Of a stretch of DNA of 64,000 bases, positions 5,148-26,591 are shown in pieces. This stretch comes from Acidiferrobacterales bacterium (lineage in GTDB: Bacteria; Pseudomonadota; Gammaproteobacteria; Arenicellales; JAJDZL01). The notes beneath the pieces were generated by a model. That model saw only the letters and a program-made list of their open reading frames with translations. It searched no databases and was not told where the DNA came from. Position numbers and translations under genes: made by a program. Each line of letters opens with the position of its first letter. The first letter of the stretch is position 1. Location of the stretch: the NCBI GenBank assembly GCA_028820695.1, contig JAPPIB010000042.1:1-64000 (forward strand). The letters run 5' to 3'.

Positions 5148-6320
5148 ATGGATGGTAAAGGATTCAAGACGAGAGCAGTCAGGGCAGGTCAGTCCAGAAC
5201 CGAGGAGAACGAGCACAGCGATCCGATATTCGCGACCTCAAGTTTCGTATTCAGGGACTCGGCTGAGGCTGCTAGCCGGTTCGCCGAGACAGAACCCGGC
5301 AATGTCTATTCCAGGTTTACCAATCCGACTACCCGGGCGTTCGAGAACCGACTGTCGAAGTTGGAAAACGCGCATTTCTGCAGCGGAACCGCATCCGGTA
5401 TGGCCGCGATTCTCGCAATATGCATGACTACATTGAAATCCGGTGACCACATTCTTGCCGGGCGTGGCCTGTTTGGCTCGACTGTCAATCTGTTTTCCAA
5501 CATTCTAACCAGGTTCGATATCGAAACGACATTCATCTCTCCGACCGATGCTCAGGACTGGCGGGAGAAGTTGCGCAACAATACCAGGTTGATATTTGTG
5601 GAGTCTCCGTCAAACCCGCTTTGCGAGATCGTCGATATAGCCGAACTGGCCGCTGTCTCACGCGAAAAAGGCGATTGCATCGTGGTGGTCGACAACGCTG
5701 CATGTACACCGGCACTGCAACGACCATTGGAACTGGGAGCCGATGTCGTCGTGTACTCCGCCACCAAGTTTCTCGATGGTCAGGGCAGGGCTGTCGGGGG
5801 TGCAGTAGTCACGAACGAATCTGATATCGCGGACCGCATAGTCGGGTTCTTGCGTACCGCTGGACCTTGTATGAGCCCATTCAACGCATGGATTTTCCTC
5901 AAGGGCCTGGAAACTCTGGCGATCAGAATGTCCGAATCCTGTGCCAGTGCATTGAAAGTCGCAAATTGGCTGAATGCCCAGCCGAATGTCACTCAGGTGC
6001 ATTATCCGGGTCTGATTGGTCATTCCGGTCATGAGCTCGCAAAACAACAGCAAAGTGACTTCGGGGCGATTCTTTCGTTTGAGGTTGACGGTGGGAAGTC
6101 TGCCGCCTGGAATCTCATAGATCGATTGGAAGTGTTCTCAATCACCGGAAATCTGGGTGATGCCAAAAGCACGGTCAACCATTCAGCATCGACTACACAC
6201 GCGCGAATCCAACCCGAAGACCGGAAACGGGCTGGCATTACCGATGGACTGATTCGACTGTCGATTGGACTCGAGGACGCAGACGACCTGATCGCTGACT
6301 TACGGGCTGGCCTGGGCTAA
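5148..6320 (+). CDS. metZ: O-succinylhomoserine sulfhydrylase
   Basis: A 390-residue PLP enzyme of the Cys/Met metabolism family (fold type I). MetZ makes homocysteine directly from O-succinylhomoserine and sulfide. Visible features are the opening FKTRAVRAGQ, the substrate and PLP phosphate region NVYSRFTNPTTRAFENRL, the segment FCSGTASGMAAI, VVDNAACTPALQ and the Schiff-base lysine in YSATKFLDGQGRAVGG (about residue 207). The STVNHSAST motif near residue 345 is typical of this branch. The start is set by GAGG at 5136-5139. A SAM-II riboswitch precedes it, strongly supporting a methionine role. The 3' end overlaps the convergent oxygenase-like gene by 4 bp. Confidence 0.92.
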   Translation: MDGKGFKTRAVRAGQSRTEENEHSDPIFATSSFVFRDSAEAASRFAETEPGNVYSRFTNPTTRAFENRLSKLENAHFCSGTASGMAAILAICMTTLKSGDHILAGRGLFGSTVNLFSNILTRFDIETTFISPTDAQDWREKLRNNTRLIFVESPSNPLCEIVDIAELAAVSREKGDCIVVVDNAACTPALQRPLELGADVVVYSATKFLDGQGRAVGGAVVTNESDIADRIVGFLRTAGPCMSPFNAWIFLKGLETLAIRMSESCASALKVANWLNAQPNVTQVHYPGLIGHSGHELAKQQQSDFGAILSFEVDGGKSAAWNLIDRLEVFSITGNLGDAKSTVNHSASTTHARIQPEDRKRAGITDGLIRLSIGLEDADDLIADLRAGLG

Positions 6321-6898
6321 CCTGAACTGTCATGATTGCCGCTCAGTCGTGTCTCATCATGACGCAAACCGAATATCCACCGATCCGTCGTAACATCCTC
6401 AAGATAGTGGAATGGCCTATGAGACATTCCCTTGAAGCCCGGACCCGGCATCAGTATTACGTCACCGGGTAAGTTCACAACTTCCATTGAGCCCGTCTTC
6501 ACTCGGTCCCGGCTGATATGGAATCTCCCGTGCCCTGAGAGTACGAAAAGACAAATCATATGCCGGTAGTCGGTTCGGTCACGATGTGGTGTGATGCCGA
6601 TACAGCCAGGCACATATTTTTGTATGATCCAGTCGTTGAAAACAACGTCAGCGTCAAACAGATCACATCCTGCAATACTGTCGTTGAAAAGAGTCTGAAA
6701 GTCACGCACAAGCTCACCGAAGGCACCATTCATGCACAGTTGAGTTTGTAGAAACATTTCCTGTCTCACTTCATTCTTACCGCGTCCCATCGAATTGTTG
6801 ATGTAGCGAAGCGGATAGCTTTGTGCCTCTTCAAGAAGTTCGAGTCGAAACTCTTCGGTCAGAATCGGTATCGATAGCGCGCGAATGTGGTGAAGCAT
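6317..6898 (-). CDS. 2OG-Fe(II) oxygenase-like protein
   Basis: About 193 residues with an HxD...H iron-binding pattern: His and Asp in ITPHRDRTDYRHM, the distal His in GMSHRPFHYLEDV and a C-terminal DRWIFGLRHD arginine that could hold 2-oxoglutarate. GDVILMPGPGF fits the jelly-roll turn before the third ligand. I prefer the ATG at 6898, which has GGAG 9 bp upstream; an earlier in-frame ATG at 6952 lacks a ribosome site and adds atypical residues. It is convergent with metZ. The substrate is unknown; similarity is to compact AlkB-like or SM-20-like proteins, inferred only from the motif pattern. Confidence 0.6.
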   Translation of the reverse strand: MLHHIRALSIPILTEEFRLELLEEAQSYPLRYINNSMGRGKNEVRQEMFLQTQLCMNGAFGELVRDFQTLFNDSIAGCDLFDADVVFNDWIIQKYVPGCIGITPHRDRTDYRHMICLFVLSGHGRFHISRDRVKTGSMEVVNLPGDVILMPGPGFKGMSHRPFHYLEDVTTDRWIFGLRHDETRLSGNHDSSG

Positions 6899-7142
6899 CT
6901 GGATCGCTCCGGCCATATGCGCTGTGCAAATACGGAAAGTTGACATGCTCATTCAATGAAATTACCAGCGACAGTTCGAGATTCACCGCACGCTCACCCG
7001 GAATTATTTGTGATATATTTCCATCTTGATTGAATAACGTACAATAGAATCTATCGATATTCAGATACCACCATCCCAGAATAATTTCAAATCAATAAAG
7101 TGAACTTGACTGTCACGAGTGTGGTAGGGGAGAAGGCATTAT

Positions 7143-9251
7143 ATGAGTAATGGGGATGACTTAGGCCCACGCTTAGCCGCAATAAAGAACGCAGAGGTGA
7201 TCAAAAGCTTCTGCTATACCTGTCCTTGGCAGTGTCCAACCGAAGTGTTCGTGCGCGACGGGAAAATTGTCTATCACAAAGGTAATCCCGAATCGCCAAA
7301 CAATATCGGCTCAAGATGTGCCAAGGGTATGGCCAGCTGGTACGTAACCCGGGACCCAGATCGTCTGAAGTACCCGATGCTTCGAACCAACCCGAAAGGG
7401 GAACCCGGAAAGTTTCAGCGCATCTCCTGGGATGAGGCATATTCCTATATCGCGGACAAGCTGCGTTCCATCGCTGACCAATATGGTCCGGAAGCAGTTG
7501 CGCTGACTTGCCATCATGACCCCAACACCCAGTTCTACCGGCATTTGCTCGGCGAATTGTATGGTTCGCCGAATATGTATGCGCATACATCAGGATGCGA
7601 GCAGGACCGCAGGTCAGCGTGTCTGACAATGTTCGGACATGTATTTCCAATGCACGACTTCGCAAATTCGAGGTATGTCATGCTCTGGGGCATGAACAAT
7701 CTAGGGGCCAATCAGGGACTGTGGGAAAGTCGGGCATTGATCGACGCAAAGAAAAATGGGTGTAAATTGGTGGTGGTTGATCCGAATTTCACCGAAACTG
7801 CCCAAAAAGCGGATGAGTGGATACCCATTAATCCGGGAACCGACGGTGCGCTGGCACTGGCAATGTGTCACAGCATTGTCAGTAATCGTCTGTATGATCA
7901 GGATTTTGCCAACAACTACTGCAACGGTTTCGATGGGTTTCGCGATCATCTTCAGGACAAGGGATATTCCCCTCAATGGGCCGAGTCGATCTGCGGCGTC
8001 AGCAAGCAGACAATAGAACGCCTGGCGAGAGAGTTCGCGACGACCAAGCCAGCCATGTCGGCAATCTTCAAGGGCTCGGGCTACTACACCAACGGAGCGG
8101 ACGCCGGAAGGGCATGTTATGCCTTGAATGCCATTTGTGGTGAAGTCGACAAGCCTGGAAATCTACATCTCAAGGATTGGGCGCCTCTCGGGCTGCCAGT
8201 CGTTATTCCGGATGAGGCCAAGACAGCCCCTTCCAAGGGCCCGCTGCATGCGGAAATGGGATATCCCCTGGCTCCGGATCTTCCCAATTCAAAGTTGCCT
8301 GATGCCGTCATCGATGGCAATCCGTATCCTGTGAAGGGGTTGTTCGTTCACGCCACCAATCCGGTGATGAGTGATCCGAACCGAGACCGTGTTATCGAGA
8401 TGTTCAGACATCTTGAGCTTGCGGTCGCGTGTGAACTCTACATGAGTGAAACCGCACTGGAATGCGATATTGTCCTTCCCGAAACCTCATTCTATGAGCA
8501 GGCTGAAATCCGTCAGGGTATGTGGCTGGGTCCGCAGGTTGTTCTGTGTCAACCGGTTGTCGCACCGGTCGGGGAGTCTCAGCCGCCCTATGAAATTGCC
8601 AAGGGTATCGCACAGAAGATGGGCTGGGGAGAGTATTTCCCCTACGAAACCTGGGAAGACTGGGGCGAAGTCATGATGGAAACAGTGCCGATGTCCCTGG
8701 AAGAACTGAAAGGCAAGGGATTCTGGGCCGGTGAGATCCGTTACAACCGGGTTCCCGAAGGGCTTCCGACTCCATCCGGAAAAATCGAGATTCATTCGAG
8801 TGCTTACGTAGAAGCCGGATTCAGCGGGTATCCCGAATACACGGAGCGCAGCGTGATACCGGACGAGGAGTATCCATTGCAACTGACCCATTCAAAACTG
8901 AGCATGCATTGCAACATCGTAACCCAGAACAATCCGTATCTGATGGAGATATGTGGAGAGAACTGGGTGGAAATCAACAGCAAGGATGCGGCACAATACG
9001 GAATTGCAGATGACACGATGGTGATACTTGAGTCGCCGAAAGACAAGATCGAAATCAAGGCGAAAGTCGTTGAGGGTCTGGTGCCGGGCTGCGTCAGCGT
9101 CCGTCATGGCCACGGATTCGGACATTGGGCGATGGGTTCGACCGCCAAGGGCCACGGTGCCCATTCAAACAATCTGATGGACATTTATACCAACCCGATA
9201 ACCGGTGCGAACTGCTATAACGAGTGTAAAGTTCGCATTCGGGCAGCGTAA
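7143..9251 (+). CDS. Molybdopterin (Mo-bisPGD) oxidoreductase, catalytic subunit
   Basis: A 702-residue DMSO-reductase-superfamily enzyme of thiosulfate/polysulfide reductase (PhsA/PsrA) type. Residues about 20-60 carry a [4Fe-4S] motif CYTCPWQC followed by SRCAKGM. SGCEQDRRS (about 155) could supply the Mo-ligating Cys. Further motifs are LWGMNNLGANQG, VVVDPNFTETAQKADEW, INPGTDGALALAM and the C-terminal cofactor-binding SVRHGHGFGHWA. No twin-arginine signal precedes the iron-sulfur motif, so the enzyme is probably cytoplasmic, unlike PhsA or PsrA. AGGGGAGAAGG at 7127-7137 sets the start. It heads a tight run with a ferredoxin subunit, a UroD-type methyltransferase, a corrinoid protein and a b-type membrane subunit. 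The substrate cannot be told from sequence. Confidence 0.85.
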   Translation: MSNGDDLGPRLAAIKNAEVIKSFCYTCPWQCPTEVFVRDGKIVYHKGNPESPNNIGSRCAKGMASWYVTRDPDRLKYPMLRTNPKGEPGKFQRISWDEAYSYIADKLRSIADQYGPEAVALTCHHDPNTQFYRHLLGELYGSPNMYAHTSGCEQDRRSACLTMFGHVFPMHDFANSRYVMLWGMNNLGANQGLWESRALIDAKKNGCKLVVVDPNFTETAQKADEWIPINPGTDGALALAMCHSIVSNRLYDQDFANNYCNGFDGFRDHLQDKGYSPQWAESICGVSKQTIERLAREFATTKPAMSAIFKGSGYYTNGADAGRACYALNAICGEVDKPGNLHLKDWAPLGLPVVIPDEAKTAPSKGPLHAEMGYPLAPDLPNSKLPDAVIDGNPYPVKGLFVHATNPVMSDPNRDRVIEMFRHLELAVACELYMSETALECDIVLPETSFYEQAEIRQGMWLGPQVVLCQPVVAPVGESQPPYEIAKGIAQKMGWGEYFPYETWEDWGEVMMETVPMSLEELKGKGFWAGEIRYNRVPEGLPTPSGKIEIHSSAYVEAGFSGYPEYTERSVIPDEEYPLQLTHSKLSMHCNIVTQNNPYLMEICGENWVEINSKDAAQYGIADDTMVILESPKDKIEIKAKVVEGLVPGCVSVRHGHGFGHWAMGSTAKGHGAHSNNLMDIYTNPITGANCYNECKVRIRAA

Positions 9252-9268
9252 CGCTGGAGGATATTGGA

Positions 9269-9823
9269 ATGCAACATGGATTTTATTTCGATCATCACAG
9301 ATGCGTGAAGTGTCACGCCTGTGAGATCGCATGCAAGTCCTGGAACGAGATTGATATCGGTCCGCGCTGGCGGGAAGTCGTCAAGATCGAATCGGGAGTG
9401 TTCCCAAATGTCACGGCGATGAATGTTTCAATGGCATGCATGCATTGTGGCGATGCACCATGCCAGAACGCCTGTCCGGTCGGTGCAATTTCCAAAAGTG
9501 TTGAAAACGGCATTGTGACCGTTGATGAGAACACTTGTATTGGATGTGGATTCTGCACTTTTGCCTGCCCGTTCAATGCGCCTCAATTGAGTGCGACCGC
9601 CGGCAAAATGGAAAAATGTAATTTCTGCCAGACTCCAGGCAGGGAAAGACCGCTTGACATGCCTCGTGCCTGTGAGGAAATCTGTCCGACCAATGCGATC
9701 TCCTCCGGGCCGATGACAAAATTGGCAACCGAAAATCGTGCGACTGCGGCGAAGCGTCTGGCAGCACAGGGATTTCCGGGAATGGTGACAGATGCTGCCG
9801 CAAGATTCGGACCCGGTAGCTGA
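9269..9823 (+). CDS. Four-cluster ferredoxin subunit (DmsB/PhsB-like)
   Basis: A 184-residue electron-transfer protein with the cysteine groups of the DmsB/PhsB/NrfC family: CVKCHACEIACK (residues 12-23), CMHCGDAPCQNACPV (about 57-71), CIGCGFCTFACPF (about 91-103) and CNFCQTPGR with CEEICPTNA (about 118-140). It would wire the upstream Mo enzyme to the membrane subunit encoded at 12183. GGAGG lies 8 bp before the ATG, and the gene follows the Mo-subunit stop by 17 bp. Like its partner it has no export signal. Confidence 0.9.
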   Translation: MQHGFYFDHHRCVKCHACEIACKSWNEIDIGPRWREVVKIESGVFPNVTAMNVSMACMHCGDAPCQNACPVGAISKSVENGIVTVDENTCIGCGFCTFACPFNAPQLSATAGKMEKCNFCQTPGRERPLDMPRACEEICPTNAISSGPMTKLATENRATAAKRLAAQGFPGMVTDAAARFGPGS

Positions 9824-9875
9824 CCACATCAGTATGGGCCAAGACTCGAATATGAACCGCCCGAGGTGACATTCC

Positions 9876-11249
9876 ATGGCTGAAATTATCGGTAAGGCGA
9901 TCCCCCCGCAAAGAAAGCGGGTGATTGATGCCTTGCATCTGCGCGAACCTGATCTTGTTCCGGTCGGTTTGTGGGGGACAATTGAGGGATACCAGAACCT
10001 GCGAAAGGGGATTGGTATGGACTATAAAGCCGATCCGAAAGATTATCGGACTGGCTCAACCACTTGGACAACCGACGTCAGTTTCGAACTTGACGTGGCC
10101 TATGAATTGGATGTCGATTTCATGCGGATTGCGATTGGCACACCCGGCGGCTCACCGGGTTTTCGGGAAATCGCGTTCGACGAGATTCCCTTCGATATGG
10201 GAATCCCACCCCCGGATATGGACATCAACGTAGATGAATGGGGTGTCATTCGCAAGTGGACACCCCACGAACAGGGCGGCTATTACGAAATGATCGGATA
10301 CCCGCTGTTTCACGCGACCAGCGCGCCGCTTGAAGAAGGGCTGAGAATTCTGGACGAATTTCCCTGGCCGGATCCATGGGATGACTCGTGCCTTGAGGAT
10401 GCACCGATACCCGGAATGACATTGCGCGAATACTGCAAGTTCATTCATGAGGAGACTCCCTTCGCATTGTTGGGTCAGGGCGGCCGCGGCGGAATTTTCG
10501 AACAGGCCAAATACATGGTTGGATATGCGAAAATCTTTTCGGACTTCATCGAGTCCCCGGATTTCCTGGAAGCCATGCTGACACGCCTGACCGATATTGA
10601 GATCGACTTCAACAAGGCAATCATCGACGAGTGTGGTGAGTACCTGGACTGGTTGCGGATGAGTCCGGAAGATCTGGCCAGCGAGAAGACTGCCTTTCTC
10701 TCGCTTCGGATGTTTGACCGTCAGGTCAAACCTCACTATATCCGGGCGTTCAGAGAAATCAAGGAATACTACCTGAAGAAAAATCCATTGGGTAAGATTC
10801 AGTTTCACAGCTGTGGTGCGATTCCAGAGCCATTCATGCGTGGATTGATTGAGTCGGGAGTCGATGGGTATGACAGCCTGCCGCCGAAAGTGGCGCGGCA
10901 CTCCAATCCGGCAGCCAAGAAAAGACAGCTCGGCAAGGAAATGTTCTTTTATGGCGGCATTGATGTGCAGGAAACCCTTCCATGGGGAAGTGTCGAAGAT
11001 GTCCGTAACGAGGTTCGTCAGAGAATTTGGGAAATGGGCCACGGCGGCGGTTTCCTCCTCAGTTCGTCACATCGGCTGGAACACGATGTTCCCACTCAGA
11101 ATGTTCTGGCAATGATTGAAGAAGCAAGAAGCTATGGCGTGTATCCTCTGCCCAGTGAACCGCCACCCGGAGCGGATACTGGTGAGGGGTATGAACCATG
11201 GTCTGGCGAGCGCAAGCGAAGACGGCGACCGGTTCGCAAAGCGGCGTAA
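9876..11249 (+). CDS. UroD-family corrinoid methyltransferase
   Basis: A 457-residue protein of the uroporphyrinogen decarboxylase superfamily, branch of MtaA/MtbA/CmuA-type cobalamin-dependent methyltransferases. It opens RKRVIDALHLREPDLVPVGL and contains KIQFHSCGAIPEPFMRGLIE, where HxC is the usual zinc-site pair, and YDSLPPKVARHSNP. The last motif is FLLSSSHRLEHDVPTQNVLA, where most relatives have a Cys near the first His; here that position is Ser, so zinc binding may differ. A basic tail (ERKRRRRPVRK) ends the protein. GAGGTGA precedes the ATG. The corrinoid protein 28 bp downstream is the obvious partner; the methyl donor or acceptor is unknown. It is too divergent and out of context to be HemE. 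Confidence 0.8.
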   Translation: MAEIIGKAIPPQRKRVIDALHLREPDLVPVGLWGTIEGYQNLRKGIGMDYKADPKDYRTGSTTWTTDVSFELDVAYELDVDFMRIAIGTPGGSPGFREIAFDEIPFDMGIPPPDMDINVDEWGVIRKWTPHEQGGYYEMIGYPLFHATSAPLEEGLRILDEFPWPDPWDDSCLEDAPIPGMTLREYCKFIHEETPFALLGQGGRGGIFEQAKYMVGYAKIFSDFIESPDFLEAMLTRLTDIEIDFNKAIIDECGEYLDWLRMSPEDLASEKTAFLSLRMFDRQVKPHYIRAFREIKEYYLKKNPLGKIQFHSCGAIPEPFMRGLIESGVDGYDSLPPKVARHSNPAAKKRQLGKEMFFYGGIDVQETLPWGSVEDVRNEVRQRIWEMGHGGGFLLSSSHRLEHDVPTQNVLAMIEEARSYGVYPLPSEPPPGADTGEGYEPWSGERKRRRRPVRKAA

Positions 11250-11276
11250 GTTTTTGTTCCTTGGTAGATAACTGAT

Positions 11277-12125
11277 ATGGCTCTATTTATTGAGACGGAA
11301 AAAGAATGGGATCTTGAAGATCTTCAATACGACTATGAGGACTCTTTGGAAACTGACAGGTGGTCCGATGCACCACAGGAGATCAAGGAGTTGTTTCATG
11401 AAATCGAGTGGAACATTATTGACGGGGAGCACGAAGATACATCCGATCTGATTCACCCGGCGCTCGACTCGGACGTCTCACCCAGAACTCTGGTTGCCGG
11501 TCCAATGGCAACCGGCATTGCCGAAGTCGGGCGACGCTTCAAGATGGATGAGTATTTTCTTCCTGAAGTCATGATGTCTGCGAAGTGCATGCATGCTGCG
11601 CTCGGAATTCTCAAGCCGCTGATCATCGCTGAGAAATCCGAGGACATCGGAACTGTCGTGGTCGGCACCGTTCAGGGTGACTTGCACGATATCGGAAAGA
11701 AGATCGTCGCGATGATGCTCGAGGCGGCGGGCTTTACAGTGATTGATCTCGGAGTCACAGTCCCGCCAGAGGATTTTATTGCTGCGATTCGCGAGCACAA
11801 CCCCCAGATTGTTGGATTTTCGGCGCTTCTCACAACGACGATGAACATGCAGTGGGAAACCATCAAGCAGATCTCAGGCGAAGGACTTCGCTCTGACGTG
11901 AAGGTGTTTGTCGGAGGCGCACCGATAAGTCAGGCCTGGTGCGACAAGATCGGTGCAGACGCCTATGGTGTTGATGCCTTGGTCGCAGTTGAAAAGGCCA
12001 AAGCCTGCGTTCAGGAATATCAGGACATCAAGGGCGGGGATCCTGCCTTGCACACTGCGTTGCTTGCAATGGATGCAGAGAGAACCGCGGAACAGGCAGC
12101 CAAAGCGGCGGCTGCGGCGGGCTGA
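11277..12125 (+). CDS. Corrinoid (B12-binding) protein
   Basis: A 282-residue protein with the two-domain layout of methyltransferase corrinoid proteins (MtaC/MttC/MetH cap plus B12-binding fold). The helical cap spans about residues 30-125 (ALDSDVSPRTLVAGPMATGI, EVGRRFKMDEYFLPEVMMSA). The cobalamin site follows: GTVQGDLHDIGKKIVAMML with the DxHxxG base-off histidine ligand, VIDLGVTVPPEDFI, GFSALLTTTM and VFVGGAPI. Residues 1-30 are an acidic extension and the tail is Ala-rich. It should carry methyl groups to or from the UroD-type enzyme encoded just upstream. Confidence 0.9.
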   Translation: MALFIETEKEWDLEDLQYDYEDSLETDRWSDAPQEIKELFHEIEWNIIDGEHEDTSDLIHPALDSDVSPRTLVAGPMATGIAEVGRRFKMDEYFLPEVMMSAKCMHAALGILKPLIIAEKSEDIGTVVVGTVQGDLHDIGKKIVAMMLEAAGFTVIDLGVTVPPEDFIAAIREHNPQIVGFSALLTTTMNMQWETIKQISGEGLRSDVKVFVGGAPISQAWCDKIGADAYGVDALVAVEKAKACVQEYQDIKGGDPALHTALLAMDAERTAEQAAKAAAAAG

Positions 12126-12182
12126 GCCGACTTATTGTCCAGTCGTCGATTCCGAGTCCGGTTTATGGATTTGATCTGACAG

Positions 12183-13337
12183 ATGGATAAGACTGCCCAC
12201 GAGCTTCGGCGCCAGCTAAGGCGCACGTTTCTGCCGCTGGTTGCGGGCGTAGTGATGTTTACCCTCAAGCTGTCCGGACAGTTCGGAGCCGGGTCCGGAT
12301 ATGGCTTGCTGTTGGTTTCAGTGTGTCTGATCACTGCCGGAGTGGTTGCGACAGCACTGCTCGTTTTTACCCGTAGATTCTCCACAGAATCACTGACCGG
12401 CGCACTCAGGTGGTTGCTATGGGCAGGCGGTTGGCTATATGTGATTGCGGTTTTCGATCTGTCTGGATATTACGTTGCCGAAGGGTTGGCCGGTAATGTC
12501 GAATTAAGATGGATGCTGTTCGGCCCTCTGGCATTGGCGACGTTAGCCCTGTTCGATATCGGACTGTATCGGATTCTCGTACAGAAAAATCGTCCAAGCT
12601 GGGTCCGATATCGTCAGCACATCAGCCGGGAACATGCAGAACCGGAAGCTGCGCGCAAGACGTTTGTGATGGATGTAGTCCTGCATACAAGCCTGCTTTC
12701 GGTCAGCGGATTTCGCTGGCTCCGGCATACTCTGATCTATTGGGGATTCGTATTGCTGTTCGGGGTTGAGATCATTGCGGTTTTCGTTCGTGAGGGTATC
12801 CCTGCGTTCGGAATGATCGACATCTGGGAAATTCCGGGGCATCCGGTGCGATTGGCCTTCGATTTCGCCTTTGAATTCTTTGGTTTCATGGTGCTGGCAG
12901 GGTGTTTAATGTCATTTATGTGGCGTGTCAAGGCCGGCGGGACTCAGGAGCAGAAATTTGCCGATACGCCATCAGTCCTGTTTCTTTTCCTGGTCGTTTT
13001 CAGCGGTTTTGTAGTTGAGGCGGCCCGTTTCGCGACCGATGGTGCGCCTGATGGCAGCGGTTATTCATTTGTCGGATTTGCACTGATGTTGATTATGGGT
13101 GAAAATGTGAATTTGCTGGTTGGTATCTATACGCCAATTTGGTATTTTCACGTATTTGGCTCGCTGGCATTTATTGTCTATGTGCCGGCGTTCCGGCTGA
13201 TACACTCGTGTGCGACGCCTATCGGAAGGATAATCACTTCGCAGAAGAGGATACTGTCGAGCAAGCGAATGCATTCGATCAGGGGGCTGGCAATGCGTAC
13301 CGGTGGCAAGTTGAATTCAGAAGTAGAGATGGATTGA
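12183..13337 (+). CDS. b-type membrane subunit (NarI/DsrM/HdrE-like)
   Basis: A 384-residue integral membrane protein with about nine hydrophobic segments. The second half (SVSGFRWLRHTLIYWGFVLLF, RLAFDFAFEFFGFMVLAGCL, IWYFHVFGSLAFIVYVPAFR) resembles the nitrate-reductase gamma and HdrE fold, with histidines in transmembrane helices that could bind b hemes. I read it as the quinone-reactive anchor for the Mo/Fe-S pair encoded upstream. The N-terminal third adds extra helices (about residues 10-130), more than NarI has. It ends 3 bp before the next gene, so the run continues. The electron-flow direction is undetermined. Confidence 0.72.
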   Translation: MDKTAHELRRQLRRTFLPLVAGVVMFTLKLSGQFGAGSGYGLLLVSVCLITAGVVATALLVFTRRFSTESLTGALRWLLWAGGWLYVIAVFDLSGYYVAEGLAGNVELRWMLFGPLALATLALFDIGLYRILVQKNRPSWVRYRQHISREHAEPEAARKTFVMDVVLHTSLLSVSGFRWLRHTLIYWGFVLLFGVEIIAVFVREGIPAFGMIDIWEIPGHPVRLAFDFAFEFFGFMVLAGCLMSFMWRVKAGGTQEQKFADTPSVLFLFLVVFSGFVVEAARFATDGAPDGSGYSFVGFALMLIMGENVNLLVGIYTPIWYFHVFGSLAFIVYVPAFRLIHSCATPIGRIITSQKRILSSKRMHSIRGLAMRTGGKLNSEVEMD

Positions 13338-13340
13338 CAA

Positions 13341-14147
13341 ATGAGCAAAGTTATCGCAATTTATGGTAAGACATGTTGTCTGAAATCGGATGTTGCACGC
13401 GCAATATCTCGTCTGACCGGCTACAAACTCGCAAGCCGGGGGGAAGCCGTAACGACCCAGGCGCTCATGCACAAGCTGGCAAATGGTAACGAAGTCGACC
13501 TGGATTTTCATAAACAGCTCGATGAGCGTACACGGTCAATGCTGTCCTGGCCTGATCCTGTCGTGATATTGGAAAGCCGGTTCATAGACTCTGTTCTTGG
13601 CAGCCATGATGACGTTTTTTATGTCCACGTGAAGTCAGGGGATGAAGTGAGAAATGAGCGATGGATGCATCGGCGGGAAGAAGGAGGTGGTCGGACGCGA
13701 CAAATCGGCGAGGGCGTTGCACAGCGCGACAGTGATGACGAAGCATTACGCGAGCAGCTATATCCGGATGTGTCGCAAGTCAAGCCGAACATGAGCATTG
13801 ATACGACCGAAGGTGACGTATACGGCTATGCCGTCCAAATATGGTCGACGTTTACGGGCGAAGACCTGCAGCATCTTGTCGACTCTGCAGGCCAGGTCAT
13901 GGACAAGAAGCAGACTAAAGGTCTCAAACCCGGCCCGGCGACCGGTACCGTTGCAATCTACAACGCGTTAAGAAATCCTTTCGGAGGGTATATAACGGAC
14001 GACGAGAGCGGACGCAAGGTATTCATTCACAAAAGTGCTGTTGAATCAGCAGGTTTTGGCGAACTTCACATCGATCAGCGAGTTGCCTATCGAATCGTAG
14101 AGGACGGTTTCGGCGGATTCAGGGCTGTTGAAATCCAGAATCAGTAA
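13341..14147 (+). CDS. Cytidylate-kinase-like domain fused to a cold-shock-like domain
   Basis: A 268-residue two-domain protein. Residues about 1-165 resemble cytidylate-kinase-like P-loop proteins (VIAIYGKTCCLKSDVARAIS as a loose Walker A, VVILESRFIDSVLG, RNERWMHRREE). The glycine-rich loop is abnormal (GKTCCLKSD), so kinase activity is doubtful. Residues about 200-268 (TGTVAIYNALRNPFGGYITD, RKVFIHKSAVESAG, DQRVAYRIVEDGFGGFRAVE) match the beta-barrel pattern of cold-shock domains, with FIHKSA the RNP2-like strand. The gene starts 3 bp after the membrane subunit. I do not know this fusion from described systems; nucleotide-responsive RNA binding is speculation. Confidence 0.6.
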   Translation: MSKVIAIYGKTCCLKSDVARAISRLTGYKLASRGEAVTTQALMHKLANGNEVDLDFHKQLDERTRSMLSWPDPVVILESRFIDSVLGSHDDVFYVHVKSGDEVRNERWMHRREEGGGRTRQIGEGVAQRDSDDEALREQLYPDVSQVKPNMSIDTTEGDVYGYAVQIWSTFTGEDLQHLVDSAGQVMDKKQTKGLKPGPATGTVAIYNALRNPFGGYITDDESGRKVFIHKSAVESAGFGELHIDQRVAYRIVEDGFGGFRAVEIQNQ

Positions 14148-14159: not shown

Positions 14160-14438
14160 GTGCCAACGTTAAGGGACGTACTGCCTCAGCTGGACCAGGA
14201 CGACTCGTATCGCGATTGCGGTGCGTATCCGCTAAGGGATGTCCAGGTCATTCAGATCAAGCTTGGCATTGGAGCGCCATGCTCGTCCCGCGATGAATTG
14301 TTTGCGCCTTGGCCGGGCGAGGAAGCGGACATTGAGAAGTGGTACGTATTGGATAACAACACAGCTGTCGGCGTGAAAGTCAACGGTGATGGCGTGTACG
14401 AGTTTCCGCTTTATGACATGGAACAGTCGGATGCCTGA
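14160..14438 (+). CDS. Hypothetical protein, 92 aa
   Basis: A GTG-started small acidic protein (MPTLRDVLPQLDQDDSYRDC, a CSSRDELFAPWPGEE segment, terminal FPLYDMEQSDA) with no family I recognise. It lies 12 bp after the fusion gene and its stop overlaps the start of the CDGSH gene by 8 bp, so it is very probably translated. There is no signal peptide or membrane segment. Two cysteines (residues 20 and 41) could matter for redox but are not in a known motif. Confidence 0.6.
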   Translation: MPTLRDVLPQLDQDDSYRDCGAYPLRDVQVIQIKLGIGAPCSSRDELFAPWPGEEADIEKWYVLDNNTAVGVKVNGDGVYEFPLYDMEQSDA

Positions 14439-14709
14439 AACACAATTACCCGCATGTCCACAAAAAGCCCCTTATGTAGTCAACGTTGAGTGCGGCGTTC
14501 TGTACGCGTGGTGCAGTTGCGGCTTAAGCGATACCCAGCCGTGGTGCGACGGTAACCATAGGGGTACGAATTTCAAACCGATCAAGTTTGTTGCTCCTAT
14601 TTCCGGTGAGTATTACATGTGTGGGTGCAAGCAATCGGATAATGCGCCATATTGTTTCGGGAACTGTATGGGCCATGCGCCTCCGAGCGGCTCGGGTGCC
14701 GCAGTCTGA
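14431..14709 (+). CDS. CDGSH iron-sulfur domain protein
   Basis: A 92-residue protein with a clear first CDGSH motif, CSCGLSDTQPWCDGNH (C-x-C-x2-S-x3-P-x-C-D-G-x-H, about residues 28-43), expected to bind a [2Fe-2S] cluster by three Cys and one His. A second, degenerate copy CGCKQSDNAPYCFGNC (about 65-80) has Phe for Asp and Cys for the histidine, so its cluster could be all-cysteine or absent. The ATG at 14431 overlaps the preceding gene, indicating translational coupling. Such tandem CDGSH proteins are thought to handle electrons or iron; the role here is inferred only from the redox-rich neighbourhood. Confidence 0.85.
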   Translation: MPETQLPACPQKAPYVVNVECGVLYAWCSCGLSDTQPWCDGNHRGTNFKPIKFVAPISGEYYMCGCKQSDNAPYCFGNCMGHAPPSGSGAAV

Positions 14710-14715: not shown

Positions 14716-15018
14716 ATGTACTACCGAGTAGTCGTGCGTCACAACCTGGTTGAGGAAATTCGCCATCAGCAGTCGCTTTCGGAAAGACAGAGTCTGTTGC
14801 ATTCGAATCTGGAAGCGGGTACTTTGCTGTCACAGAACTTCCGACAGACTGGTTGCATAGACGGGGAGTATTGTTTTGATGACTCACAACGGGCAAAGTT
14901 GTTCGCTTCAGTCTGCATGGACTTCATTTCAAAGTTGCTGGATAGCAGGTCTGCGCGGATTGAGTGCCTTAACCATGACGAGGAGTACCTGGCTGACGAC
15001 ATCAAGAGACATCAGTGA
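14716..15018 (+). CDS. Hypothetical protein, 100 aa
   Basis: Begins MYYRVVVRHNLVEEIRHQQS six bp after the CDGSH gene and reads through a charged, soluble, helix-rich sequence (LLHSNLEAGTLLSQNFRQTG, VCMDFISKLLDSRSARIECL). I recognise no family. It has no signal peptide. Position in an uninterrupted co-directional run is the main support for a real gene. Confidence 0.5.
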   Translation: MYYRVVVRHNLVEEIRHQQSLSERQSLLHSNLEAGTLLSQNFRQTGCIDGEYCFDDSQRAKLFASVCMDFISKLLDSRSARIECLNHDEEYLADDIKRHQ

Positions 15019-15840: not shown

Positions 15841-16581
15841 TTACTCCTGTTTCAGGATTTCATCAATATCGAGATGTCTGATATCCTCACCCTTGACATA
15901 AAAGATCACGTGCTCGCAAATATTGCAAAGTCGGTCACCGATTCTTTCGAGTGAACGAATTGCCCATAGGGTCTCAATTGCGTCAGGCACGGAATTCGAC
16001 TCGGCCATCATCCATTTTTTTATTTTCTTGAGGGTCGTTTCAAACTTCTTGTCGACTTTCTTGTCTTTTCTGATCAGGGTGAGCGCTCCGGCATCATCTT
16101 CCTGTTCGAACACGCGCAATGTCTGAATCAGCAACTTGTGCACTCGTGCAGCCAGTTCTTCAATATCATCATCTTGCGGAGAATCTCCGCCATTGGAAAC
16201 AACTCTGCTGCCCATCTCGAACACCCGGTGCACCTCGTCTCCCATACGTTCCATATCGTTCACCGTCTTGATGATCATGATGATGAATCTGAGGTCGCTC
16301 GCAATCGGTTGCCGTCGGGCGAGGATCTCGACACATTCCCTGTCAATCTCGACTTCAAGATTGTTGATCACTGTCTCGGTTTCCAAAACTTCACGTTCGA
16401 GTAACCGGTCACCGTGAATGAGAGATTGGATTGCGCGCCTCAACTGTTTTTCAATCAGTTGCCCCATCTCGAGTGTTCTGTCACTCAGTTGTCGGAGTTC
16501 GACGTCGTACTTTGCTGAATAGTGGCCTGATATCATCGTTTTCGAATTAACAATCGGTGCTGATTTTACCTGGATTGTCAT
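15841..16581 (-). CDS. phoU: Phosphate signalling regulator PhoU
   Basis: A PhoU of about 246 residues with two three-helix PhoU domains. Signature segments are ISGHYSAKYDVELRQLSD, RRQPIASDLRFIIMIIKTVN with DMERMGDEVHRV (domain 1 metal-binding helix) and TLWAIRSLERIGDRLCNICE (domain 2). It links the PstSCAB transporter to PhoR/PhoB and damps the Pho response when phosphate is sufficient. The start is uncertain: an upstream ATG at 16614 and an inner one at 16536 are possible, and none has a strong ribosome site. It is divergent from pstS instead of closing the pst operon as in E. coli. Confidence 0.92.
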   Translation of the reverse strand: MTIQVKSAPIVNSKTMISGHYSAKYDVELRQLSDRTLEMGQLIEKQLRRAIQSLIHGDRLLEREVLETETVINNLEVEIDRECVEILARRQPIASDLRFIIMIIKTVNDMERMGDEVHRVFEMGSRVVSNGGDSPQDDDIEELAARVHKLLIQTLRVFEQEDDAGALTLIRKDKKVDKKFETTLKKIKKWMMAESNSVPDAIETLWAIRSLERIGDRLCNICEHVIFYVKGEDIRHLDIDEILKQE

Positions 16582-17097
16582 CGTTGAGATAGTTTGTGCA
16601 CGAGACGCCAACATGGGGGTCGGCGACGAATGTCTAGTTCAACACTGTGGAAATCATCTGCATTGATTTTTGATCTGCTAATTAATTGTACTTTATCCGC
16701 CACTTAGGCTGTGCAAGTTTAAATCGAATGAAATGATGAATTAAGTGCGCTCATCTCCAGACGGTTGGCAGGCAAAACGCGTTCGGAAGGTTGCACCAAG
16801 CGTCCAATGCCGGCGGAAGAGCCGATCGAGAACAGCTGGCAGGGTGCCGTTGCATTCGAAATCCCCTGTCTGGAAAAGAGTTACATAATTTAACAGGAAT
16901 ATCCTTATAGAACGATTGACTGTCACGTTCCGATTACGATCGGCAAACTGCCATGAATAAAGGAGTCTTGGAACCACAGGGGCAATAAAACTTGACAAAC
17001 ATGAATATTTCGCTAAATTAGCCAATGAAACTGTTTAGTTTCTGAACCCTTTTTTGATGACCTTACAGGTCGACATTTTCTTCTTCAGGAGATTGAA
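16582..17097. other. Divergent phoU-pstS intergenic region with promoter candidate
   Basis: About 515 bp with no convincing gene; a 94-codon minus-strand frame at 16741-17025 has no family resemblance. A plausible pstS promoter is TTGACA at 16992-16997 with TAAATT at 17014-17019 (16-bp spacing). Single Pho-box half-sites (CTGTCAC near 16919, CTGCCAT near 16948) are visible but not as the 11-bp-spaced pair that defines a Pho box. A small palindrome CCGAT-TACG-ATCGG lies at about 16930. Confidence 0.35.
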
Positions 17098-18168
17098 ATG
17101 GTCCATTTGGCATCAAATCTCAGGGGTTACCTGACTGTTCTGGCTGTGATGCTAGGGTCCTTTCCGATGGCTGTTCAAGCTGACGAACGAGACTATATCA
17201 GTATTGTTGGATCTTCTACGGTCTATCCTTTTGCAACGGTGGTTGCGGAACGTTTTGGAACCGGTACGGAGTATCCAACTCCAATTATTGAATCGACAGG
17301 CTCCGGCGGCGGTCTGAAACTGTTCTGTACAGGTATCGGAGTCAAGCATCCTGACATCACGAATTCCTCAAGGCGGATCAAGCAATCTGAAGTCGATCGC
17401 TGTGCAAAAAGTGGTATTACAGGAATCGTCGAAGTTAAGTTCGGGTACGACGGTATTGTCATTGCGAATTCAGTTGAAGCCGAGCCATTCGTTTTGACGA
17501 GAAGAGAGATTTTTCTTGCGCTTGCGAAGCATGTTCCTTCGCCGGATGACTCTGAGACATTGGTCACAAATCCTTACAAGACATGGAAGGATGTCAATCC
17601 TGAATTACCTGATGCGGCGATCCGCGTTCTCGGACCACCACCGACATCGGGTACTCGAGATGCATTCGCCGAACTCGCTCTTGAGGGTGGTTGTGAGACT
17701 TTCGAATGGATCAAGGCAATTGAAATATCTGACAAGAAGCGCTACAAGTCGATCTGTCACGCTGTTCGTGAAGACGGTGCGTGGGTTGAAGCCGGTGAAA
17801 ATGACAATATCATCGTTCAGAAATTGAACGCGGATAAACAATCGCTTGGGGTTTTCGGATTCAGTTTCCTGGATCAGAATTCAGATCTGGTACAAGGCGC
17901 TGTTATTGATGGCGTTGCCCCTGAGTTCGAAAATATTGCAGACGGCTCCTATGCCATCTCTCGCTCCCTGTACTTCTACGTTAAATCTGCACACATCAAC
18001 CTGATTCCTGGAATCAAGGACTATGTTGCAGAATTTACCAACGAGCGTGCTTGGGGTGATGACGGCTATCTGGTGGACAAAGGAATGATCCCCATGCCAG
18101 AAGCCGAACGTTCTGAGTTTAAGACAGCCGCCAAGGAACTAAGGTCCGTCAAACTCGCTTCCCATTGA
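17098..18168 (+). CDS. pstS: Phosphate-binding periplasmic protein
   Basis: A 356-residue PstS. The signal peptide is roughly residues 1-28 (YLTVLAVMLGSFPMAVQADE). The mature protein shows the phosphate-site segments ISIVGSSTVYPFATVVAERF (SST loop), STGSGGGLKLFCTGIG and GPPPTSGTRDAFAELALEGG, the STGSGGG and SGTRD loops being the classic phosphate contacts. CAGGAG lies 7 bp before the ATG. First gene of pstSCAB; expected to deliver phosphate to PstCA and to be induced by phosphate starvation. Confidence 0.95.
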   Translation: MVHLASNLRGYLTVLAVMLGSFPMAVQADERDYISIVGSSTVYPFATVVAERFGTGTEYPTPIIESTGSGGGLKLFCTGIGVKHPDITNSSRRIKQSEVDRCAKSGITGIVEVKFGYDGIVIANSVEAEPFVLTRREIFLALAKHVPSPDDSETLVTNPYKTWKDVNPELPDAAIRVLGPPPTSGTRDAFAELALEGGCETFEWIKAIEISDKKRYKSICHAVREDGAWVEAGENDNIIVQKLNADKQSLGVFGFSFLDQNSDLVQGAVIDGVAPEFENIADGSYAISRSLYFYVKSAHINLIPGIKDYVAEFTNERAWGDDGYLVDKGMIPMPEAERSEFKTAAKELRSVKLASH

Positions 18169-18387
18169 ATTGACGGTTTGGAGTGAACCATTGTTGGTTC
18201 GACCAACGGTTGACAAAACCCGGGATAGTCGAGCTTGTCCGCAAGATTCATAAAGTCAAGAGTGTCAGGCAATGCATCAACTACCATTTCGGATCACAAG
18301 AGTCTGCAATTTGCAGTCTGCGCGATACCGGTCGAATAATGAAGCTTTTGAATTTGCTGCAATGATCAATGACAGGATGAGTGGCGC

Positions 18388-19779
18388 ATGAACGCCTGGA
18401 CATTGGCAATCATCATGCTTGTGATGTCGTCGCTGTTCTACGCGATTGCGAAAAAACGTTCACTGCGAATTGCCGAAGGTATCGGAGGTATCAGGAATCT
18501 GCATTCCGCACCAAGGTATTACGGCGTTGTCGCGGCCGCCCTGTTCGCGATTCCAGCGCTATCAGTGCTTGGTTTGTGGATCAGTGTGGACGAAAGCATC
18601 ATATTACGCATGGTATTGTCCGAATTCTACGCAGACATGCAGTTCGCTGATCAGGCCGATAAGGACTGGGTGGTCAGTCAGATCCAGATTTACGCCCAGT
18701 CGGGCCAGCTTGTTGCGACAGAGAATGTTCAGGTCCTGACCGCAGCAGCAGATCGTTATCAGCATCTGGTCAATCTAAGCGACACCTTGCGTAACGCATC
18801 GATACTGGTGCTGGGCGCGATTATCAGTTTCATATTCATTGTCTTGATCTCCGCAAAAGTACGTGCTCGCGTAATTGCTGAGTCAATCACCAAGCTGTTG
18901 CTCCTAGCCAGTTCCCTGATTGCAATTTTTACAACGCTGGGAATCGTTCTATCGGTATTGTTTGAGGCCATATTGTTTTTTCAGAAAGTCCCCGTACATG
19001 AATTTCTGTTTGGACTCGAGTGGAGCCCTCAGATTGCGATTCGAGAGGATCAGGTCGGGTCGTCAGGTTTATTTGGAAGTGTACCGCTGTTTACTGGGAC
19101 ACTGCTTATTGCCGCAGTAGCGATGGGTGTTGCGGTGCCGGTCGGCTTGCTATCAGCGATTTATCTGGCCGAATACGCCTCGACGAAAGTCCGTTCGTTC
19201 GCAAAACCCGCACTGGAGATCCTTGCAGGTGTTCCGACTGTAGTGTACGGCTTCTTTGCGATACTTGTAGTCGCGCCCTTGCTTCGAGAGTTTGGTTTTA
19301 CGCTGGGACTCGACATTGCGCAGGAAAGCGCTCTGGCGGCGGGTGCGGTCATGGGAATTATGATTGTTCCATTTGTATCGTCACTAACCGATGATGTCAT
19401 TACCGCATTGCCGCAGTCGATCCGGGAAGCATCTTTGGCTTGCGGGGCAACGAAGTCGGAAACCATCAAGAAGGTCGTGCTTCCAGCAGCACTGCCGGGA
19501 ATAGTAGGATCGCTTCTACTCGCGGTTTCCAGGGCGATTGGAGAAACGATGATTGTCTTGATGGCTGCCGGCCTGGCAGCCAGACTGACTGTAAACCCAC
19601 TGGAGTCGGTCACGACCGTAACGGTGCAAATCGTCACGCTTCTCGTTGGCGACCAGGAATTTGACAGCGCAAAGACACTTGCGGCATTTGCGCTGGGACT
19701 GACACTGTTTGTCGCAACACTGCTGTTGAACGTTACGGCACTGTATATCGTTCGCAAGTATAGTGAACAATATGAATAG
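18388..19779 (+). CDS. pstC: Phosphate ABC transporter permease PstC
   Basis: A 463-residue permease, longer than the roughly 320 residues of E. coli PstC because of an N-terminal extension (about 1-170) with extra membrane segments (WTLAIIMLVMSSLFYAIAKK, YYGVVAAALFAIPALSVLGL, ASILVLGAIISFIFIVLI). The ABC-permease core follows, with the EAA loop SIREASLACGATKSETIKKV and AIGETMIVLMAAGLAARL. It lies 219 bp after pstS, a gap with no gene, and overlaps pstA by 17 bp. Confidence 0.92.
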   Translation: MNAWTLAIIMLVMSSLFYAIAKKRSLRIAEGIGGIRNLHSAPRYYGVVAAALFAIPALSVLGLWISVDESIILRMVLSEFYADMQFADQADKDWVVSQIQIYAQSGQLVATENVQVLTAAADRYQHLVNLSDTLRNASILVLGAIISFIFIVLISAKVRARVIAESITKLLLLASSLIAIFTTLGIVLSVLFEAILFFQKVPVHEFLFGLEWSPQIAIREDQVGSSGLFGSVPLFTGTLLIAAVAMGVAVPVGLLSAIYLAEYASTKVRSFAKPALEILAGVPTVVYGFFAILVVAPLLREFGFTLGLDIAQESALAAGAVMGIMIVPFVSSLTDDVITALPQSIREASLACGATKSETIKKVVLPAALPGIVGSLLLAVSRAIGETMIVLMAAGLAARLTVNPLESVTTVTVQIVTLLVGDQEFDSAKTLAAFALGLTLFVATLLLNVTALYIVRKYSEQYE

Positions 19780-21052
19780 CGTTGAAGCTCAGCAATCAAA
19801 GGTGGTGTGGGAGAGTCCTCACTTCAGAAAGCGTCTGAAAAGACGCAATTCTGCCGAAGTGCGTTTCAAATGCTATGGCCTCGGTGCGGTAATACTGGGC
19901 GTGATATTTGTCTTTTCGCTATTCGCTAGCATTGCGGTCAATGGGATCAGTTCGTTTTGGCAGACTCAGATCCAACTGGAGGTCCACTTTGACTCGGGCG
20001 ACATCGATGCAAACGATCTGCGAGGCGGGAATTATGGCAAATTGATCAAACAGGCGATGTACAAGCAGTTTCCAGACGTTACCAAGCGCAAGCAGAAACG
20101 GGAACTCTCGAGAATTGTCAGCATCGGAGCCAGTTTCATCCTGCAGCGACTGGTTGCAGATGATCCGTCACTTCTCGGCACGACGAAGACACTGTGGGTG
20201 CCGGTGGATGATGAATTCGATATGCTGTTCAAGCACGATATCGGGAGGGACGGCAGGTCTCGTTTGTCCAAAAATCAGATTGACTGGTTTGATCAGTTGG
20301 TTGATCGCGGATTGATTCAAAGTCGGTTCAACAAGTTGTTCTTGACCGCTGGTGACTCCAGGGAACCTGAGCTCGCAGGTTTGCGAGGGGCGTTGACAGG
20401 GTCATTTCTGATGATCTTGGTTACTTTGCTGATATCTTTTCCGGTCGGTGCGGCCGGTGCGGTTTATCTACAGGAATTTGCGCCGCGCAATCGGTTTACA
20501 GACATTATCGAAATCAATATCAACAACCTTGCTGCAGTGCCCTCGGTCGTTTTTGGCTTGCTGGGCTTGGCCGTCTTCATTAATTTCTTCGGCATGCCCA
20601 GATCGGTACCGCTGGTGGGTGGGCTGGTATTGAGTCTGATGACGATTCCGACGATTATCATCGCTGGTCGAGCTGCGTTGAGGGCCATTCCTCCATCAAT
20701 ACGCGAAGGATCGCTTGCACTTGGAGCATCAAAGACTCAAACTGTGATACAGGAAGTTGTTCCGCTCGCGATGCCGGGATTTCTTACGGGCACGATAATC
20801 GGATTGGCGCAGGCTTTGGGTGAAACTGCACCTCTGCTGATGATTGGCATGGTCGCATTCATTGTGGACATACCCGGCGGTTTACTGGACCCTTCGACGG
20901 CTCTTCCGGTACAGATCTACCTGTGGGCGGACAGCCCTGAGCGGGCTTTTTTGGAAAAAACTTCAGGGGCGATATTGATTCTTCTGGGCTTTTTGTTCAC
21001 AATGAACGTTGTAGCAGTGATATTACGACGCAAATTTGAAAGAAAGTGGTAG
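19763..21052 (+). CDS. pstA: Phosphate ABC transporter permease PstA
   Basis: A 429-residue permease with an enlarged periplasmic insertion (about residues 60-200, containing SGDIDANDLRGGNYGKLIKQ) between its first membrane helix and the conserved core. The core has FLMILVTLLISFPVGAAGAV, the EAA loop SIREGSLALGASKTQTVIQE and AQALGETAPLLMIGMVAF. The GTG at 19763 and an ATG at 19772 are both possible starts inside the end of pstC. It pairs with PstC to form the channel. Confidence 0.92.
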   Translation: MNNMNSVEAQQSKVVWESPHFRKRLKRRNSAEVRFKCYGLGAVILGVIFVFSLFASIAVNGISSFWQTQIQLEVHFDSGDIDANDLRGGNYGKLIKQAMYKQFPDVTKRKQKRELSRIVSIGASFILQRLVADDPSLLGTTKTLWVPVDDEFDMLFKHDIGRDGRSRLSKNQIDWFDQLVDRGLIQSRFNKLFLTAGDSREPELAGLRGALTGSFLMILVTLLISFPVGAAGAVYLQEFAPRNRFTDIIEININNLAAVPSVVFGLLGLAVFINFFGMPRSVPLVGGLVLSLMTIPTIIIAGRAALRAIPPSIREGSLALGASKTQTVIQEVVPLAMPGFLTGTIIGLAQALGETAPLLMIGMVAFIVDIPGGLLDPSTALPVQIYLWADSPERAFLEKTSGAILILLGFLFTMNVVAVILRRKFERKW

Positions 21053-21091
21053 GTTTGACACTTCGCCAGACATGCATTGGAGGTAAGTGAC

Positions 21092-21955
21092 GTGGAAATG
21101 GAAACAGAGGCAGTTACCGAAAAAGAAAGAATTGTCATTCATACCGATACTTCCAGATTTGGTGCCGATGATTCCGCACAAGCAGGCAAGAGTTCCATCG
21201 AGAATCGTATGACGGTCGAAAATGTTGATGTCTATTACTCGGACAATCATGCCATCAAAGATGTGAGTCTGGAAATTCGGGCGAACGAAGTTTTGGCAAT
21301 AATCGGGCCGTCAGGATGTGGCAAGTCAACCTTCTTGCGATGTCTGAATCGGATCAATGACATCATCGACGGTTGTCGGATCACCGGCAGTATCAAGCTC
21401 GACGGCAAGGATGTCTACCGCAGTGGATTGGATGTAGTTGAGCTCCGAGCGCGTGTGGGGATGGTTTTTCAAAAGCCGAATCCATTTCCCAAATCGATCT
21501 ACGACAATGTGGCGTATGGCCCACGGTTGCACAGTCTGGTAAGCAATCAGGCCGAGACCGATGAAGTTGTCTACTCGTGTCTTGAGAGAGTCGGACTGCT
21601 GTCTGAAGTCAGTGACAGAATTCAGAATTCCGGAACCGAATTGTCTGGTGGTCAGCAGCAACGGTTATGCATTGCGAGAGCGATCGCAGTCCAGCCCGAG
21701 GTCATACTGATGGACGAGCCGTGTTCCGCACTGGATCCGATCGCTACCGCCAGGATTGAGGACTTGATTGATGAACTGCGTTCACAATATTCGATCGTAA
21801 TTGTGACGCACTCAATGCAACAGGCTGCCAGAGTGTCGCAGAGAACGGCATATTTCAACCTCGGTGAATTAATCGAACTTGGCGACACAAGCGAAGTCTT
21901 TACCAACCCCAAGCATCAGCTCACCGAAGATTACATCACCGGAAAGTTTGGCTGA
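21092..21955 (+). CDS. pstB: Phosphate ABC transporter ATPase PstB
   Basis: About 287 residues. After an acidic leader of about 40 residues comes the PstB core: [16 protein letters not shown], Walker [40 protein letters not shown], the signature [17 protein letters not shown] and Walker [22 protein letters not shown] prefer the GTG at 21092, correctly spaced from GGAGG at 21079-21083, over the TTG at 21077 that overlaps it. Last gene of the operon. Confidence 0.94.
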
Positions 21956-26172: not shown

Positions 26173-26591
26173 TGATCAGTTACCTCACTGTGTCGGGTTC
26201 TGAGCGGTTTGGACGAACAGCAAAACTCTCCCAGTTGCTGAACTTCCAGTTTGCCGCGTACAAAATAGAGTAAATGCATTGCAACCATTGCCATCATACT
26301 TGTTTGGGAGACTTCATTCTTCATGCGGTATAGGTTAACCTGATACACAAGTTCCCTGCAAGTGTCCCTGCATGCAAGAAACGAAGGATCGTTTATTGCA
26401 CCCTGTCTGTGCAATGCGAGCAATCTATACCTCTCATGCTTGGCAGATGTTGGTTCAAGCTTGTGACTTACGAGCCAATTCTCCAAAATCTGCTCGCCGA
26501 GTCTCAGCAGATGTTCAGCTGGGTCGGGCACAGTTTGTGGATTGTCGCGTACCGACTTGATGTTGCTCTCGAGTTCAGAAAATTCAATCAT
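26169..26591 (-). CDS. Hypothetical protein within the sHdr cluster
   Basis: A 140-residue soluble, helix-rich protein. It begins MIEFSELESNIKSVRDNPQ and includes LVSHKLEPTSAKHERYRLLA, FLACRDTCRELVYQVNLYRM and MMAMVAMHLLYFVRGKLEVQ. It overlaps hdrB2 by 4 bp and lbpA by 4 bp, so it is translationally coupled to both. I know no function. Cysteines in CRDTC and CCSS could bind a cofactor or persulfide, but no standard motif is present. An assembly or sulfur-transfer role is inferred from position only. Confidence 0.65.
   Translation of the reverse strand: MIEFSELESNIKSVRDNPQTVPDPAEHLLRLGEQILENWLVSHKLEPTSAKHERYRLLALHRQGAINDPSFLACRDTCRELVYQVNLYRMKNEVSQTSMMAMVAMHLLYFVRGKLEVQQLGEFCCSSKPLRTRHSEVTDQ

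Follow-up and report, generated by a model that had tools for sequence, protein, structure and literature searches.

The window analysed here is a 64,000-nucleotide stretch of DNA (contig JAPPIB010000042.1) from the genome of an Acidiferrobacterales bacterium placed in the Arenicellales by GTDB, and all coordinates below are positions within it. Between 7143 and 13337 it holds a cassette of five plus-strand genes encoding a molybdenum-bis(pyranopterin guanine dinucleotide) (Mo-bisPGD) oxidoreductase, a four-cluster ferredoxin, a URO-D family methyltransferase, a corrinoid protein and a membrane subunit. In our view the cassette probably forms the core, for both demethylation and redox chemistry, of a pathway that breaks down methylated arsenicals such as arsenobetaine, trimethylarsine oxide or dimethylarsinate. 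The methyl-transfer genes of the cassette and the arsenic genes around its orthologues in other lineages together point to methylated arsenicals as the substrate.

Conservation and subunits of the cassette

The five genes are co-directional with intergenic gaps of 17, 52, 27 and 57 bp in the list of open reading frames, and their families were matched, which bears out the uninterrupted run noticed in the preliminary description. When 84,980 species genomes were scanned for the URO-D protein, 17 orthologous loci came up in Arenicellales and in other gamma-, beta- and alphaproteobacteria; the carriers, including the window's genome (G000), are labelled G000–G017 (n = 18). An orthologue of the Mo subunit (71–94% identity) is present in all 17 other URO-D-carrying genomes, so co-occurrence is the rule among carriers and the single functional unit proposed earlier was upheld. 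Because the block is kept in beta-, gamma- and alphaproteobacterial loci, the cassette is not a chance assembly, and the conserved unit runs past 13337 to approximately 15018. The cassette is rare and patchy and is inherited or transferred as a unit: the URO-D gene was found in only 6 genomes among 119 relatives, all of the window's own genus, and the Mo gene, among 398 evenly drawn Pseudomonadota, in the window's genome only (0/397 others). No cassette orthologue was found on plasmids.

The catalytic subunit (702 aa; 7143–9251, plus strand) matches the Pfam families Molybdopterin, Molydop_binding and Fe4S4, the domain set of the DMSO-reductase family, and carries the cluster motif C24-C27-C31-C59 (C-x2-C-x3-C-x27-C). 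No twin-arginine motif occurs within its first 60 residues, in agreement with the cytoplasmic enzyme without a twin-arginine translocation (Tat) signal that had been described. Its invariant motif H148-x-S-G-C152-E-x-D-R-R157 brings C152 into alignment with the Mo-ligand Cys of PsrA and ArrA; the His at C-4 and the Arg at C+5 of the pocket occupy the positions of ArrA H189 and K198, which we take to be arsenate-binding residues, whereas PsrA has Ser at C-4. The subunit scored 430 bits against the curated PhsA model (cut-off 694; ~30% identity to PhsA) and 193 bits against the ArrA equivalog (cut-off 1600). The phylogenetic tree, which has some long branches and in which the position of this clade relative to the others is unsure, placed the subunit in a clade of its own with 100/100 support, outside PhsA/PsrA and ArrA plus ArxA-like enzymes. 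Curated scores and tree together rule out PhsA, PsrA or ArrA as its identity, and the phylogenetic check suggested earlier thus found it inside none of these clades.

The second gene (9269–9823, plus strand) encodes a four-cluster [4Fe-4S] electron-transfer subunit of the DmsB/PsrB type, with 16 Cys in four groups. It is followed by the methyltransferase gene (457 aa; 9876–11249, plus strand; Pfam URO-D, E 1e-17), whose orthologues are 75–97% identical. The protein keeps H311-x-C313 and has H399 at the third position in every aligned sequence, positions presumably occupied by the zinc ligands in MtaA-type proteins; no further Cys follows C313 in the window's protein. It therefore departs from the His-x-Cys...Cys zinc-ligand pattern of MtaA/CmuA, an invariant His standing in for the third Cys, and it lies far below the cut-off of the MtaA/CmuA family TIGR01463 (29 bits; cut-off 235). 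Its AlphaFold2 model is poor (predicted local distance difference test score, pLDDT, 58) and backs the URO-D fold only (3cyv, E 4e-5), and a profile search of the PDB with its alignment gave no matches. As in three-component methyltransferase systems, the gene stands beside that of its cognate corrinoid protein (11277–12125, plus strand), a two-domain protein with B12-binding domain matches and a DLHDIG motif. This pair supports the cobalamin-dependent methyl transfer that had been claimed for the cassette.

The fifth gene (384 aa; 12183–13337, plus strand) encodes a predicted membrane anchor. This subunit had no match in Pfam or NCBIfam, and a PDB profile search with its alignment was likewise without matches. 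Its AlphaFold2 model (pLDDT 79) gave EtfD (Z 13.5, 248 residues) and NarI (Z 9.5, 184 residues) as the best structural matches. His182, His323 and His341 are invariant, with His323 and His341 spaced 18 apart, and His168 and His220 are near-invariant. The predicted structure and the His pattern are those of the NarI-superfamily cytochrome b fold, with a putative heme. Through such a NarI-type anchor, the quinone-pool coupling proposed in the preliminary description is probable.

Arsenic and one-carbon genes linked to orthologous loci

In alphaproteobacterial loci, genes for ArsR, ArsD and ArsA lie between the ferredoxin and URO-D genes or next to the Mo gene, and the space between ferredoxin and URO-D also holds those for a leucine/isoleucine/valine (LIV)-type ABC importer. 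The linked ArsD and ArsA scored 113 bits (cut-off 90) and 770 bits (cut-off 650), respectively, and both are linked in 8 of the 12 non-Arenicellales carriers. Their placement follows three arrangements: inside the operon, divergent from the Mo gene (G014), or flanking a one-carbon (C1) module (the betaproteobacterial G009). Aquaporins accompany the non-Arenicellales loci, and the LIV-type importer usually does.

Of the 12 non-Arenicellales carriers, 11 have an arsenite oxidase subunit AioA that exceeds its curated cut-off, compared with 13 of 288 Alphaproteobacteria (Fisher p 8e-13); the carriers are partly related by descent, and the background consists of Alphaproteobacteria alone. In nine of these 11 genomes AioBA adjoins either the C1 module or the cassette, the usual order being h190-MTHFR-AioB-AioA-pentapeptide-aquaporin. 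The linked AioA (983 bits; cut-off 359) keeps the residues aligned with H195, E203, R419 and H423 of 1g8k, which we assume to be the arsenite-site residues. AioA scores fall into two sets, approximately 980–1000 bits for the linked form and 1240–1307 bits in G006, G008 and G015; there are possibly two arsenite oxidase subclades, one of them tied to the methyl pathway. G014 is the one non-Arenicellales carrier without AioA. Its PsrA-like Mo enzyme, encoded beside a membrane-anchor-like gene, is not assigned to ArxA, since it passes no curated cut-off and joins ArrA only as a deep long-branch outgroup. With ArsR/ArsD/ArsA in the operon and AioBA plus an aquaporin by the C1 module, the methylated sulfur, selenium or amine substrate of the preliminary description was not supported.

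The C1 module, in the stretches read, comprises genes for a virulence-factor-like protein, a methylenetetrahydrofolate reductase (MTHFR)-like protein, a methyl-tetrahydrofolate (THF):corrinoid methyltransferase (MeTr), a second URO-D protein (UroD2), a second corrinoid protein (Cor2), a RamA/AcsV-type activator, CobW and a GntR regulator; the MTHFR-like protein was not seen in G014. A RamA orthologue is present in every carrier (in G002–G005, RamA alone was checked), and UroD2 occurs in 0/384 other Alphaproteobacteria. The window's genome carries RamA (60%), MeTr, UroD2 and Cor2 on another contig (C52), and so has the RamA-type activator and second methyltransferase that belong to three-component systems. 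The module is expected to be the sink of methyl groups into THF. Among Arenicellales, G001 has an aquaporin gene within its C1 module, and in G004 and G005 one is found on the contig that carries RamA, no more than ~7 kb away from it; the only aquaporin-family member of the window's genome is a more distant one, located elsewhere (C54).

Two further observations concern the surroundings of this module. Close behind its GntR gene in Arenicellales stand genes for AprB, the adenosine 5'-phosphosulfate reductase beta subunit, and an AprA-like flavoprotein (L098:14151-16453 on C52 of the window's genome; L108:3199-5501 in G001). In G014, MttB-like and phosphonate-degradation-like (PhnW/PhnX) genes, identified by eye, lie just upstream of it (L109:236-3935).

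Candidate pathway and alternative readings

From the gene content, orthology, co-occurrence, arsenic-gene linkage and active-site residues observed, we infer the substrate, the order of steps and the direction of the Mo redox chemistry as follows. The LIV-type importer, where present, would take up an organoarsenical. The corrinoid protein, in its Co(I) state, would accept a methyl group that the URO-D protein takes from pentavalent arsenic, and the arsenic would become trivalent. The methyl-THF:corrinoid methyltransferase, with RamA-type reactivation, would hand the methyl group to THF, and the MTHFR-like enzyme may channel it into C1 metabolism. Because removal of CH3+ from pentavalent arsenic leaves the trivalent form, successive demethylations would need a two-electron re-oxidation. 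We propose that the Mo enzyme is welded to the methyltransferase because a cytoplasmic, quinone-linked enzyme would supply this step: it would convert the trivalent product to a pentavalent oxide with water, pass the electrons through ferredoxin and cytochrome b to quinone, and so ready the arsenic for the next methyl removal, the Challenger pathway reversed. In genomes that have them, ArsD/ArsA would hold the final inorganic As(III), an aquaporin would let it out and AioBA would oxidise it in the periplasm. To the fuller proposal of an undescribed bacterial organoarsenical methylotrophy, in which corrinoid demethylation alternates with Mo re-oxidation, methyl carbon and electrons are both conserved and arsenite oxidase is added in most non-Arenicellales carriers, we give an even chance.

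Several observations weigh against an arsenical pathway of this kind. ArsA, AioA, Acr3 and ArsB are all missing from the window's genome, which is 97.6% complete and whose cassette comes without a LIV importer; the role in arsenic metabolism in this genome and in Arenicellales therefore rests on orthology. ArsDA is not near the loci read in G006, G015, G010 and G016. ArsB is absent from 18/18 carriers and Acr3 from 17/18, so that of the two pumps considered as ArsA partners only the Acr3 of G016 was found and ArsA is otherwise without a known one. All carriers found are metagenome-assembled genomes. In methanogens, a precedent for the pathway in that they send the methyl groups of dimethylarsenate to methane by genes not identified (PMC10579292, PMC6776024), the demethylated form reported is trivalent dimethylated arsenic, DMAs(III), which fits a reducing Mo enzyme (PMC10579292).

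For the direction of the Mo enzyme our preference for re-oxidation is modest, and the alternative, in which As(V) is first reduced to As(III) to prime the reaction, is somewhat less probable. The same organoarsenical pathway with the enzyme as a reductase, electrons passing from quinol through cytochrome b and ferredoxin to convert pentavalent methylarsenicals to trivalent ones that are then demethylated, is rather unlikely as a complete account. It draws on the nearest characterised clades (PsrA/PhsA, ArrA), which are mostly reductases, and on the trivalent DMAs reported as a methanogen substrate (PMC10579292). By chemical inference, however, moving CH3+ off As(III) onto Co(I) would formally yield As(I), whereas moving it off As(V) yields As(III), so that a series of demethylations calls for re-oxidation and not reduction; the linked AioBA works in the oxidising direction too.

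A methylated sulfur or selenium substrate, with the arsenic genes elsewhere being accessory islands for resistance and arsenite oxidation that occur at this locus because the hosts inhabit arsenic-rich environments, is less probable still. The host is a sulfur oxidiser with SoxB, HdrB-like subunits and a GcvH-like protein in the window and an AprB-type protein by the C1 module, AioA is missing from the Arenicellales carriers, and no ArsA turned up in the window's genome. On the other side, ArsR-ArsD-ArsA lies within the operon, between the ferredoxin and transporter genes, and recurs in three arrangements; all but one of the non-Arenicellales carriers have AioA, its gene adjoining the cassette or C1 module in nine of them; and resistance islands normally include a pump, whereas here ArsB is absent and Acr3 is confined to one genome. 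A different methylated substrate, including sulfur compounds, in the Arenicellales lineage alone is possible, and is the more plausible given a host that oxidises trimethylamine as well as sulfur compounds. Given the toxicity of arsenic, the reversibility in principle of every methyl-transfer step and the role of ArsD/ArsA in handling As(III), the system could also run in reverse, from methyl-THF through the corrinoid and URO-D proteins to As(III), methylating arsenic for detoxification or osmolyte synthesis. This is very improbable: together, an importer with a periplasmic binding protein, the MTHFR-like enzyme and AioBA suggest instead that the substrate is taken up, that its methyl carbon is catabolised as C1 units and that inorganic As(III) is set free.

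Flanking genes, host metabolism and known systems

Four conserved followers extend the unit on the plus strand. A fusion of a kinase-like N-terminus and a cold-shock domain (13341–14147) begins 3 bp past the fifth gene, and is followed by a 92-aa protein (14160–14438), a CDGSH iron-sulfur protein (14386–14709, the true start probably downstream of 14438) and a 100-aa protein (14716–15018). All four recur in many orthologous loci, and several alphaproteobacterial loci retain only the cold-shock part of the fusion. Divergent from the Mo gene, a 211-aa protein without a family match (6317–6952, minus strand) is kept upstream in Arenicellales only. PhoU-PstSCAB-like genes lie directly downstream (15841–21955) and also in L009 and L012, with PhoU only in L013; this synteny is perhaps coincidental. 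About 4 kb upstream of the cassette, a reverse-transcriptase-like fragment of the group II intron type (2161–2847) was judged by eye from its translation.

The sulfur oxidation genes of the window include Sox genes (39434–43700), with SoxB above its cut-off, and HdrB-like subunits with the GcvH-like protein (25729–32766), possibly an sHdr-LbpA set. Genes for trimethylamine methylotrophy occupy 45762–59598: glutamine-synthetase-like and N-methylglutamate-synthase-like genes (45762–50396), a trimethylamine monooxygenase above cut-off (50945–52408, minus strand), a LIV-type ABC transporter (52543–57226) and a trimethylamine N-oxide demethylase above cut-off (57223–59598, minus strand). The LIV-type importer beside this demethylase echoes the importer beside the cassette in other lineages.

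The cassette shares with MtaABC, MtbABC, CmuAB and MtvABC with RamA a URO-D-fold methyltransferase, an MtaC/MtbC-type corrinoid protein with DxHxxG, a RamA/AcsV-like activator and a methyl-THF:corrinoid methyltransferase. Unlike MtaABC-type systems, its operon has a dedicated Mo/FeS/cytochrome b complex, and arsenic genes are attached in other lineages. With PhsABC/PsrABC and ArrAB/ArxAB it has in common a Mo-bisPGD subunit with a Cys ligand, a four-cluster FeS subunit and a membrane anchor, and the His/Arg near the ligand Cys is ArrA-like; unlike them, it has no Tat signal, a Mo clade of its own, a NarI/EtfD-type rather than NrfD anchor, and methyltransferase partners. The AioBA that neighbours most non-Arenicellales carriers, above cut-offs, is absent in Arenicellales, and its linked form scores below canonical arsenite oxidases (1240–1320 bits). 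The C-As lyase ArsI also demethylates a methylarsenical, but is a dioxygenase for trivalent monomethylarsenical, MMAs(III), whereas the corrinoid chemistry of the cassette would conserve the methyl group. In methanogens, organoarsenical methyl groups are likewise thought to pass through corrinoid proteins to C1 metabolism (PMC6776024, PMC10579292); that demethylation is archaeal and anaerobic, whereas the cassette is a bacterial gene set using THF.

The preliminary description knew of no system that unites a Mo enzyme with a corrinoid methyltransferase, and indeed no gene-level description of one was found in the open-licence literature of PMC, which does not cover subscription journals. We see the cassette as an unreported form of corrinoid methyltransferase system that may well represent an entirely new pathway. 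The demethylation mechanism of dimethylated arsenicals has been described as unclear (PMC10579292). If the arsenical reading is true, the locus would offer candidate genes for it, each step from import through methyl transfer and redox chemistry to arsenite disposal having a named partner; the Mo, URO-D and UroD2 genes would serve as markers for metagenome surveys, and methylotrophy would be joined to the arsenic cycle.

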